Origin: Veillonellales bacterium
Lineage (GTDB): Bacteria > Bacillota > Negativicutes > JAAYSF01
Direction: 5' to 3'
DNA length: 64,000 nt
Assembly: GCA_039680175.1 (NCBI GenBank)
Contig: JBDKTO010000030.1
Location: 1 to 64,000 of the forward strand
Below, piece after piece: positions 1,845 to 10,685 of the stretch; position 1 is the first letter of the stretch; every line of letters begins with the position of its first letter. Position numbers and translations under genes: made by a program. The notes beneath the pieces are model-generated. The model searched no databases. It was not told the origin of the DNA and saw nothing but the letters and a program-made list of their open reading frames with translations.

Positions 1845-1938
1845 GGGCTGTTGGCGATTGGCTGTTAGCTTTTGGCTTTTGGCTTTTGGATCATGGATCA
1901 TGTCATGGATCATGGCCCATAGCCAAAAGCCCATGCCC
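1845..1938. repeat. Heptamer array between DUF3084 gene and its terminator
   Basis: Degenerate 7-nt units (TTGGCGA, TTGGCTG, TTAGCTT, TTGGCTT, then ATCATGG and ATAGCCA types), ending a few bases from the DUF3084 stop codon at 1945. Confidence 0.75.
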
Positions 1939-1944
1939 CCCGCC

Positions 1945-3356: not shown

Positions 3357-3443
3357 GCACTGGCTCTTGGCTTTTAGCTATGTGCCATGGGCTGTTGGTC
3401 AAAAGCTAAAAGCCAATCGCTAACAGCCAAAAGCCAATCGCCC
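3357..3443. repeat. Heptamer array abutting the lptF stop codon
   Basis: Units in both orientations (TTGGCTT-type, then AAAGCCA, ATCGCTA, ACAGCCA), so this copy can fold back on itself. The last unit touches the lptF stop codon at 3444. Confidence 0.8.
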
Positions 3444-4635: not shown

Positions 4636-5355
4636 CTACAGACTGAAATTTTCTCCCAAATAGAATTTCCTGGCGATTTCACTGACGGCGATGGTTGCAC
4701 TGTCGCCATCAATGAGAATTTGACCTTCATTGAGGATATAAGCTTTATCAACAATCTTTAAGGTTTCGCGGACATTATGGTCGGTAATTAGGATGCCGAT
4801 GCCGCGTTCCCGCAAATAGCCGATAATATCCTGAATGTCGGCTACGGCAATCGGATCGACGCCGGCAAAGGGTTCATCCAGCAGGATAAAATAGGGATCA
4901 GTAGCCAGAGAACGGGCGATTTCCACCCGGCGCCGCTCCCCGCCGGACAATTCGGAACCTTTGCGCTTGCGGACATGGACAACATGAAATTCTTCCAGCA
5001 GGCTCTCCGTTTTATCCCGGCGTTCGCCTGCCGACAAAGGGGTCGTTTCCAATATGGCCAGCAGATTATCCTCTACTGTCAGTTTGCGGAAGACGGATGC
5101 TTCCTGGGGCAAATAACCAATGCCAAAGCGGGAACGTTGGTACATAGGCATATGGGTAACATCTTCGCCATTGACAACGATATTGCCGCTATTCGGTCTT
5201 TCCAGCCCGACAATCATATAAAAGGTCGTCGTTTTACCGGCACCGTTGGGACCGAGAAGACCGACAATCTGTCCCTGATCCACCCGCAGACTGACACCGT
5301 CGACTACGTTGCGGCCTTTATAATTTTTGACTAAGTCAGAAGTTGCTATATACAT
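4636..5355 (-). CDS. lptB: LPS export ABC transporter ATP-binding protein LptB
   Basis: Cytoplasmic ATPase driving LPS export. The 239-aa product has Walker A (GPNGAGKTT), Q-loop (YLPQE), signature ([15 protein letters not shown]), Walker B ([12 protein letters not shown]) and the H-loop (ITDHNVRET), all typical of LptB. I place the start at the ATG at 5355, preceded by AAGGAG. The frame stays open 18 codons further upstream, but that stretch is read out of heptamer repeats (residues such as PTANSQ) and is very unlikely to be coding. A 54-unit heptamer array separates it from lptA, although the two products work in the same complex. Confidence 0.95.
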
Positions 5356-5372
5356 GCAAATGCTCCTTATTT

Positions 5373-5750
5373 TTGGCGATTGGCTGTTGGCTGTGGGCTG
5401 TGGGCTCATAGCTCATAGCTCATAGCTCAAAGTTCATAGCTCATAGCTCAAAGCTCATAGCTCAAAGCTCATAGCCCATAGCTCAAAGCTCATAGCCCAT
5501 AGCCCATAGCTCAAAGCTCATAGCCCATAGCCCATAGCTCATAGCTCATAGCCCATAGCTCATAGCCCATAGCCCATAGCTCATAGCTCATAGCTCATAG
5601 CCCATCGCCCATAGCCCATAGCTCATAGCTCATAGCCCATAGCCCATAGCCCATAGCTCATAGCCCATAGCTCATAGCCCATAGCTCATAGCTCATAGCT
5701 CATAGCTCATAGCCCATCGCCCATAGCTCGCAGCCCATAGCCAACAGTCC
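5373..5750. repeat. Long heptanucleotide array between lptB and lptA
   Basis: I count about 54 contiguous 7-nt units in one phase with no spacers. They begin TTGGCGA, TTGGCTG, TGGGCTG and go on with ATAGCTC, ATAGCCC and AAAGCTC variants, finishing seven bases before the lptA stop codon. On the transcribed (minus) strand the unit reads GAGCTAT or GGGCTAT. Because 7 is not a multiple of 3, the TGA inside TATGAGC recurs in every frame, so the array cannot encode a long protein. This is the largest array in the window and the region holds nothing else. Confidence 0.95.
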
Positions 5751-5757
5751 CGCCCCG

Positions 5758-6471
5758 TTACTGCTGATTAATAATCAGTTTGGTACGCCCCTGGGCGTCC
5801 ATGACTTTGTCATCCATATAGATGGTCAGGGTATTGCCTGTAAGGACATTGCCCTGCTGAATCGCACGGGCGTTGCCGGTTAATACGGCTTTAGCCTGTC
5901 CGTTTTTGGCGCCGTAGTAAACCGCCTGATCGGATACGGCATCCAGCTGGCGGGTTTCGCTGACGATATGGACATCGCCTTCGCCGACTGCCCGCTCTTC
6001 ATCAAGGAAGGCTTCCAATTTAGCGGCAGTCATGACTCCGTCCGGCATGGTCAACCGAGCCGAGTTGTTGACGACTGCATATTGTTTGTCGGAATAATAG
6101 TCGATTTGCGGACCGGTAAGGCGATTGTCGCCTTTTACCAGCACAACATCGCCGGTGGCAATAAGATGGGTATTGTCATACCCCCGGACTTCGGCTGCCG
6201 TGAGCACCGCGTCATCCTGAACGACTTTAACACCGCCGGAAATATAGGATTCTCTGGTCTTTGTATTGTAACGGGCGCTTGCCCCGGTCATGGCGGCGTT
6301 TGCCTGTGTCAGCTGAACCGCTCCCTGAGCCGTCATAACTCCGCTTACGGCATCGTATTCAATCGAATCCGCCGCCATCTCTACCGGGCCGTTGTTCTGC
6401 GCCGACAGATGATTTGTGGTGCCGACAGCCAGAAATAAAGCCAGTACTGCAATCATAAACTTATTTTTCAA
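5758..6471 (-). CDS. lptA: Periplasmic LPS-bridge protein LptA (OstA-like)
   Basis: Forms the periplasmic beta-jellyroll bridge carrying LPS from LptC to the outer membrane. The 237-aa product has a signal peptide (about 1-24, ending LSA) and an OstA-type repetitive beta domain. Typical short strand repeats are visible (VEMAADSIEYDAVSG, VVLVKGDNRLTG, AVLTGNARAIQQGN). The start is TTG at 6471, overlapping the lptC stop codon as TTGA, with GGAGGGG upstream. It is longer than E. coli LptA (about 185 aa), which could give a longer bridge segment. Confidence 0.9.
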   Translation of the reverse strand: MKNKFMIAVLALFLAVGTTNHLSAQNNGPVEMAADSIEYDAVSGVMTAQGAVQLTQANAAMTGASARYNTKTRESYISGGVKVVQDDAVLTAAEVRGYDNTHLIATGDVVLVKGDNRLTGPQIDYYSDKQYAVVNNSARLTMPDGVMTAAKLEAFLDEERAVGEGDVHIVSETRQLDAVSDQAVYYGAKNGQAKAVLTGNARAIQQGNVLTGNTLTIYMDDKVMDAQGRTKLIINQQ

Positions 6472-7028
6472 TTAGATGCCCCTCCCTTGCGAACCCGGGC
6501 GTTACCCTGCACTTTGATTTTCTCCAGATCGACATCGCTTTCCAGCTGATTGCCGCTGATGATGGTATCATCCCTGGTCACCGTAACGTCGCCGTCAGCG
6601 TAAAAGCAACGGGTTTGACCATCCCAACGCGCTTCCCTGGCATTAAGTTCGGTTCCGTCGCTGGCAACCGCCCGGACGCTGCCGGTCAGAACAATATTCT
6701 TTGTCTTTGTGTCCATGGTTGCCCAAGGTGCGGTAATGTGAATGGTACCGCCATTATCCTGATAAAAAATTCCCGCTAGGTTCATCAGCGTTGCCTGTTT
6801 GGTATTTGGCTCCATCTCAATGGAATCTGCCGTCAATTCCCAAATTCGTTTTCCATTTTCCTCTTCAATGAGTAAACTGTTGACAAAAGTGGCTGTTGAT
6901 GCCGGATCACCCTTTGCTTCCTGACCGGCGGAAGGAGAATTTAACGGTTCCTCTTTAATAAAGTAATAAATGCCTCCGGCTAAAAAAAGAACCACGCAGA
7001 CAATCGCCAGATAGGAAGTTTTTTTCAA
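6468..7028 (-). CDS. lptC: LPS export ABC transporter periplasmic protein LptC
   Basis: Bitopic protein receiving LPS from the permease and passing it to LptA. The 186-aa product has one N-terminal membrane helix (about 7-25) and a periplasmic beta-jellyroll (about 55-180) with LptC-type strands (NGKRIWELTADSIEM, KNIVLTGSVRAVASDG). The start is TTG at 7028, overlapping the upstream acyltransferase stop as TTGA. lptC and lptA both use the TTGA overlap, which points to translational coupling. Confidence 0.88.
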   Translation of the reverse strand: MKKTSYLAIVCVVLFLAGGIYYFIKEEPLNSPSAGQEAKGDPASTATFVNSLLIEEENGKRIWELTADSIEMEPNTKQATLMNLAGIFYQDNGGTIHITAPWATMDTKTKNIVLTGSVRAVASDGTELNAREARWDGQTRCFYADGDVTVTRDDTIISGNQLESDVDLEKIKVQGNARVRKGGASN

Positions 7029-7990: not shown

Positions 7991-8056
7991 GTTGGTTGTT
8001 GGCTGTTAGCGATTAGCGGTTGGCCCATCGCCAACAGCTAACAGCTCATAGCCAAA
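7991..8056. repeat. Heptamer array beside the kdsC stop codon
   Basis: TTGGTTG, TTGGCTG, TTAGCGA, TTAGCGG, TTGGCCC, ATCGCCA, ACAGCTA, ACAGCTC, ATAGCCA in continuous phase, ending three bases before the kdsC stop. Confidence 0.8.
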
Positions 8057-9506: not shown

Positions 9507-9861
9507 GAGAAATACCTCCTTGTTGTTGGGCGCATGGGGAAAAGATGGTGGAACTTAGTACTTGGTACTTGGCACTTGGTACTTGGGACTAAATCTGTCA
9601 TTGCGAGCGGCAGCGAAGCAATCTCATGTCTGCGATCGTCTATCCGGCATTGAGATCGCCACGGCTAACGCCTCGCGATGACAACTATAATGGCTTTGGG
9701 CACACGGAAGTACTTGGTACTTGGTTCATAGTACATGGCATAAAGGTCTACACCTGCAGCAGCAAGATTGCTTTGCTATCGCTCGCAATGACAATCCGGA
9801 ACTTAATTTCTAAGTTCCAAGTTCTAAGTTCCCATTGCCATGAGCCATGAGCTGTGCGCTC
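9507..9861. repeat. kdsA-kdsB gap: heptamers around an inverted repeat
   Basis: The 355-base gap holds ACTTGGT/ACTTGGC-type heptamers (about 9551-9590 and 9706-9740) around the inverted repeat at 9596-9683. A reversed half copy follows (9762-9793, ending CGCTCGCAATGACA), then more heptamers (about 9813-9860) up to the kdsB stop codon. No gene or clear promoter is visible. Confidence 0.75.
9596..9683. repeat. Dispersed ~88-bp inverted repeat, copy 2
   Basis: Begins TGTCATTGCGAGCGGCAGCG and ends GCCTCGCGATGACA. A near-perfect match to the copies at 19482 and 23023. Confidence 0.9.
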
Positions 9862-10593: not shown

Positions 10594-10623
10594 GGTAAGA
10601 CCTCCGTAGTATGTTTGGGACGG

Positions 10624-10685
10624 GGGGCGATTGGCTTTTGGCGGTGGGCTTTTGGCTGTTGGCTCATAGCTCATTGCTCATCGCC
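10624..10685. repeat. Heptamer array that supplies the lpxK stop codon
   Basis: ATTGGCTTTTGGCGG and related units pass into ATAGCTC, ATTGCTC, ATCGCC. The TGA stop of lpxK (10678-10680) and its last two codons are themselves part of the heptamer sequence. Confidence 0.75.

Follow-up and report, generated by a model that had tools for sequence, protein, structure and literature searches.

A heptamer-phased array between lptA and lptB of a Veillonellales bacterium belongs to a dispersed family of intergenic foldback repeats

The heptamer array at the lptA-lptB junction of this Veillonellales bacterium is the longest and most expanded member of a dispersed, intergenic family of heptamer-phased foldback repeats. 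We analysed it within a 64,000-nt stretch of contig JBDKTO010000030.1 (hereafter the window), in other parts of the same genome, and in genomes across the Negativicutes and the wider phylum. Our preferred account of its origin, which we hold to be somewhat better than even, is expansion through hairpin-aided slippage within a permissive gap.

Results and Discussion

Structure of the lptA-lptB array

At 375 bp (5373-5747; 53 full units plus four bases, with the 7-nt phase never broken), the array occupies the whole gap between the start of lptB at 5355 and the stop of lptA at 5758, both genes lying on the minus strand (Table 1). Tandem Repeats Finder recovered 48.3 copies over 5404-5741, with a score of 473. 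Within the unit, G occupies position 4 in all 53 cases and C occupies position 5 in 52 of 53; position 6 holds T or C. The units named in the initial annotation (ATAGCTC, ATAGCCC, AAAGCTC and TTGGCTG) are all present in continuous 7-nt phase, amounting to about 53-54 units, and its reading of an untranslatable heptamer tandem repeat within an LPS transport operon was borne out. Pfam matches back lptA, lptC, LptF/LptG, a lipid A acyltransferase and Kdo enzymes near the array; gene names beyond these are putative. The longest lptB open reading frame (4636-5409, minus strand) begins at an ATG within the array, which is likely to be a source of wrong start annotation.

The array has two unequal arms, a GT-rich arm of five units and an AC-rich arm of about 48. 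The skew of G+T minus A+C is +0.48 over the first 42 nt and runs from -0.19 to -0.38 along the entire AC-rich arm.

Table 1. Coordinates of the lptA-lptB array, neighbouring genes and related repeats in the window
Feature	Position	Strand	Basis
Heptamer foldback, other gap of the same operon region	1846..1944	.	
Heptamer foldback, DUF3084 - LptF/LptG gap	3361..3442	.	
lptB, LPS export ATPase	4636..5355	-	87% identity to G002
Shine-Dalgarno AAGGAG of lptB, few bases from the array, outside its hairpin	5363..5368	-	
Heptamer array, 53 full units, lptA-lptB gap	5373..5747	.	Repeat finder and phased reading
GT-rich arm, 5 units (TTGGCGA TTGGCTG TTGGCTG TGGGCTG TGGGCTC)	5373..5407	+	Phased reading
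Predicted terminal stem, 3' half	5375..5400	-	RNA fold of transcript
AC-rich expanded arm, ATAGCTC/ATAGCCC/AAAGCTC units, ending ATAGCCA ACAGTCC	5408..5747	+	Phased reading
Predicted terminal stem, 5' half	5731..5754	-	RNA fold of transcript
lptA	5758..6471	-	PF03968, E 1e-13
lptC	6468..7028	-	PF06835, E 5e-19
Heptamer foldback, lipid A acyltransferase - HAD (kdsC-like) gap	7991..8052	.	
TTGGYAC heptamer array, left of REPIN-like core	9553..9590	.	
REPIN-like core TGTCATTGCGAG...CTCGCGATGACA, one of ~21 copies	9596..9683	+	
Heptamer array, far side of the gap holding the REPIN-like core	9804..9860	.	
Heptamer array, kdsB / putative lpxK gap	10617..10684	.	

Chance as the origin of the lpt array was excluded by the near-total confinement of tandem arrays to period 7: scanning periods 3-30 over 408 kb of the same genome, in stretches chosen for matches, yielded 47 arrays whose period was 7 or a multiple of 7, and 3 with any other period. 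An assembly artefact is highly improbable. Several contigs end in heptamer arrays, which indicates that such arrays are hard to assemble, but the order of unit variants and the flanks are unique here, and an independent genome (G017) carries an array at the same junction. Exact repeats within the lpt array reach at most 44 nt, which puts its resolution within the scope of short-read assembly. Nevertheless, the number of copies is not certain to be exact, given that three contigs of this assembly (C8, C42 and C115) start or stop in a heptamer array; long heptamer arrays probably fragment the assembly.

A genome-wide family of period-7 arrays

Similar arrays were found by BLAST at 42 places in the genome, the lpt array included, and a lower threshold gave 54 period-7 arrays over 404 kb, of which 53 are intergenic (densities rest on sampled genome stretches). 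Heptamer arrays were present in 23 of the 60 gaps longer than 300 nt, and the LPS operon region holds six further arrays in five gaps other than lptA-lptB. The lpt array is therefore not an isolated oddity. Gaps with arrays showed no bias towards co-directional genes (46 of 51, versus 194 of 220), and array flanks had no conserved ends, apart from the REPIN-like core described below. Arrays were unevenly spread: a further 40 contigs, some of them masked, were sampled over 476 kb and contained a single array; contigs C30, C117 and C60 showed strong clustering. GC content is heterogeneous across the genome (0.33-0.55 in 10-kb pieces), and in a check of mixed-genome contamination as a source of the clustering, composition overlapped between contigs with and without arrays.

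Facing arms and predicted folds

Phased arrays often open with GT-rich units (TTGGCTG, TGGGCTG) and close with AC-rich units (ATCGCCA, ACAGCCA). GT-rich sites (TTGGCTG) lay 5' of AC-rich sites (CAGCCAA) in 242 site pairs, versus 1 in the reverse order. Counted by array, 19 had GT-then-AC order versus 0 the reverse, the remaining arrays holding one site type only. This order reads identically on either strand and so is independent of array orientation. Because the site motifs had been picked after looking, a second test set the (G+T)-(A+C) skew of one half of each array against that of the other. The result was significant in this genome (p 7e-8) and in G198 (p 9.5e-6); nine genomes combined gave 59 versus 13, and the test was not significant alone in G173, G185, G331 or G330. 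Together, the convergent site pairs and the skew test imply that many arrays are inverted repeats with 7-nt-periodic arms. The earlier description of a direct heptamer repeat thus stands as regards its tandem units, but is incomplete as regards architecture, the array being also a foldback in which a GT-rich arm faces an AC-rich arm.

The true unit order was predicted to fold better than shuffled units, with z -4.45 for the lpt array and a mean z of -1.07 over the 54 arrays. The predicted RNA fold of the lpt transcript had a minimum free energy of -181.8 kcal/mol (z -6.2 versus dinucleotide shuffles), and a predicted terminal stem of about 22 bp closes the whole array into one hairpin, with the lptB ribosome site outside. 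Sequestering of that site was rejected, its predicted accessibility being equal with and without the array. Three other candidates were also rejected, namely an intrinsic terminator (no GC-rich stem with a T-run in the array), a promoter (none found in the array) and a CRISPR array (units contiguous, no unique spacers). Known RNA families had no match in the window.

The heptamer unit and its RGCY core

In 33 of the 54 arrays, RGCY recurred in one phase in at least half of the units; the next palindromic class was YATR (17 arrays), and others occurred in 0-2. ATAGCTC repeats were predicted to form, as single-stranded DNA, one 4-bp AGCT stem with a 3-nt loop per pair of units. In the same kind of prediction TAACTGA and CCCCAGT repeats gave no fold, and GGGAATC almost none. 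Exact runs were longest in AGCT arrays (median 32 nt versus ~18 nt in others, p 0.002), and run length correlated weakly with unit fold energy (Spearman -0.30, p 0.03). Reversing the ATAGCTC unit leaves its predicted fold about as strong, so that stem strength fails to explain the choice of RGCY; RGCY and YCGR are both palindromic and have about equal intergenic frequencies. G-quadruplex formation was rejected, the motif being absent from both strands of the lpt array and present in only 2 of the 54 arrays.

A protein-binding array, in which a nucleoid or RNA-binding protein would read every 7 nt, is very unlikely. Constant unit length with variable sequence would suit it, as has been discussed for constant-size Bacillus repeats (PMC8161180), and cold-shock proteins can bind heptamer repeats (PMC4679880). 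However, units vary between species and inside one array, and most of the sampled genome is without arrays.

A REPIN-like core beside some arrays

Some arrays adjoin a REPIN-like element (TGTCATTGCGAG...GAGATCGCCACGGCT...CTCGCGATGACA), which is itself usually flanked by heptamer arrays. Arrays of the TTGGYAC type adjoin the core, with the conserved linkers CTAAATTC and GCTAGAATGGC, and 16 of 21 cores had a period-7 stretch in their flank, versus 1.5% of random positions. The genome also has seven Y1_Tnp matches, representing IS200/IS605-type Y1 transposase genes. At its own lptA-lptB junction, the same-family genome G002 carries halves of a REPIN-like core joined by a linker (GTCTAGAATGGCAACAGCCAAC) similar to those above, with two heptamer-like units. 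All four observations would fit a dispersed, non-autonomous foldback or REPIN-like mobile element, spread by a transposase and bearing heptamer arms as its variable ends. Against this, the core is absent from the lpt array and from most other arrays, and array flanks are without conserved ends, even though the arms are inverted repeats. Moreover, the core has only about 21 copies, clustered on few contigs, and no transposase could be linked to it or to the arrays. We therefore regard such an element as improbable, albeit less so than a protein-binding array.

Repeats of the CATTGCGAG type, related to the REPIN-like element and without heptamers, were observed on contig C117. An open frame at 1352-1837 spans a CATTGCGAG repeat (translation CHCEEVRRSNL) and is probably not a gene.

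The lptA-lptB gap in other genomes

Elsewhere in the Negativicutes, 29 genomes were compared at this junction: 12 have a gap of 13-41 nt, and in the remaining ones it spans 68-284 nt. Long gaps were often filled by unrelated foldback repeats, of the ACCACAGAGG...CCTCTGTGGT or ACCACAAAG...CTTTGTGGT types in several genera. In G017, the junction holds (GAGCCAC)19. A heptamer array has thus arisen at this junction at least twice, and the junction repeatedly accepts foldback repeats. The array had been called striking for its place inside an essential operon; this gap is not protected, since its length and content vary across the 29 genomes. A complete lack of similar repeats in relatives, which would have spoken against the array, was not what we found: G017 has a heptamer array of its own, and G002, which lacks the array, has at this site a different repeat that includes the two heptamer-like units. 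Inverted repeats of the ACCACAGAGG or ACCACAAAG type were seen at the junction in G032, G024, G036, G048, G025, G007 and G043, and some bear short tandem units in their arms.

These comparisons bear on whether the lpt array is a selected mRNA element of the REP/BIME kind, protecting the upstream mRNA or setting the product ratio, with its arms kept complementary by selection. The arms do remain complementary and polar, the lptB ribosome site lies beyond the predicted hairpin with unchanged predicted accessibility, there is no terminator-like site, and unrelated foldbacks fill the same gap in several genera. However, the 12 genomes with just 13-41 nt in the gap imply that nothing is required there, and arrays are neither enriched in co-directional gaps nor present in most of the sampled genome. 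We consider selection of this kind unlikely, if the most plausible of the alternatives to slippage.

Relatives across the Negativicutes and the phylum

Three tandem copies of TTGGCNN gave 49 matches in this genome versus 0-4 in each of 379 other genomes of the class. A more general motif, RGCY every 7 nt, six times, occurred in 33 of 380 class genomes, versus 3 for the reversed-motif control (YCGR). Within those 33 genomes, which had been selected as positive for 7-nt spacing, a spacing of 8 was found in one and a spacing of 6 in five. In a phylum sample, RGCY at 7 nt occurred in 15 of 299 genomes versus 10 for the control, which makes the RGCY preference mainly a feature of the Negativicutes. 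Elsewhere in the phylum, G401 had 35 matches to the reversed core YCGR and G489 had 99 matches to RGCY, both at 7-nt spacing; these two genomes may be rich in heptamer arrays.

Sampled arrays of G206, G203 and G017 included foldbacks built from other units, and G198 had 8-nt foldbacks with facing arms based on GTAGT...ACTAC. Several other genomes had single arms only among their sampled arrays. Intergenic arrays with 8-nt units were also observed in G330 and G173. Tentatively, short-unit foldbacks with facing 7- or 8-nt arms, GT-rich then AC-rich, could form a distinct, undescribed intergenic class that has arisen or spread repeatedly in the Negativicutes. If so, genome-specific units combined with a constant architecture would imply a shared mechanism that makes or keeps the arms complementary. 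Our literature search turned up no pertinent paper on repeats of Negativicutes or on tandem repeats in inverted arrangement, and no match for the REPIN-like core sequence or the CACAGAG repeat.

Proposed origin by hairpin-aided slippage

In a comparison that covered a single genome of this genus, the lpt array appears most likely to have arisen by hairpin-aided slippage within a permissive gap. In this scenario, each element would first exist as a small hairpin whose arms have a 7-nt period. Units such as ATAGCTC that become single-stranded in replication may then fold into mini-hairpins with an AGCT stem and a 3-nt loop, so that the array would grow or shrink by whole units of 7 nt. Such growth would have brought one arm of the lptA-lptB array to about 48 units, and the array would be tolerated because the gap needs only the lptB ribosome site, which is left outside the fold. 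The transcript would then bear a long hairpin between the lptA and lptB cistrons, and any effect would presumably resemble that of REP/BIME elements, acting on mRNA decay or on the ratio of lptA to lptB, and not that of a dedicated switch. Slippage leaves three observations unexplained: the GT-to-AC order of the arms, the use of RGCY over YCGR, and the clustering on contigs. As regards the first, the opposite order would fold equally well, and the strictness of the order is thus not accounted for.

Comparison with known repeat systems

Bacterial tandem repeats often have a 7-nt unit. As relayed in two later papers (PMC4679880, PMC4692102), Mrazek and others reported in 2007 that heptanucleotide repeats are the most abundant long class of simple sequence repeats (SSRs) in most surveyed genomes; the same papers relay a proposal of slippage tied to a 7-nt polymerase contact. 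The arrays described here resemble bacterial heptanucleotide SSRs in their intergenic position (outside genes in 53 of 54 cases), their lineage-specific abundance and their head-to-tail units of exactly 7 nt. In contrast to these, many are two-armed foldbacks, with a self-complementary RGCY in most units.

The TAACTGA repeats of Beggiatoaceae are heptamers that also lie between genes, many of them immediately before a start codon, and their arrays reach 43 copies in some species (PMC4679880). They have a single fixed unit, only one inverted case (PMC4679880) and no predicted hairpin. The GGGNATC quadruplex heptamers of Xanthomonas and Nostoc are likewise intergenic, and are transcribed (PMC4692102), whereas the lpt array has no quadruplex motif. 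The units found here are of the ATAGCTC, TTGGCTG and TTGGYAC types, and identity with STRR or TAACTGA repeats by unit sequence was rejected. STRR heptamers of Calothrix and other cyanobacteria, whose units include CCCCAGT and others, are similarly tandem and scattered between genes, and the kinship in kind suggested initially holds as an analogy; they differ in unit sequence, and CCCCAGT is predicted to have no fold.

REP elements are short fixed palindromes. Like REP, BIME and REPIN sequences, the arrays are dispersed extragenic palindromes, often between operon genes, and a REPIN-like core adjoins some of them; unlike REP, their heptamer arms vary in sequence and length, and there is no fixed palindrome with defined ends. 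The likeliest placement of the lpt array is therefore among known intergenic heptanucleotide repeats, from which its two arms, its self-complementarity and its changing units set it apart. The heptamer can be read here as a short self-complementary stem with a minimal loop. In several genera, arrays made of other units share the layout of two arms in a preferred order. These features provide a concrete connection, open to testing, of heptamer expansion with hairpins, and they show that gaps of an essential LPS operon tolerate such arrays.
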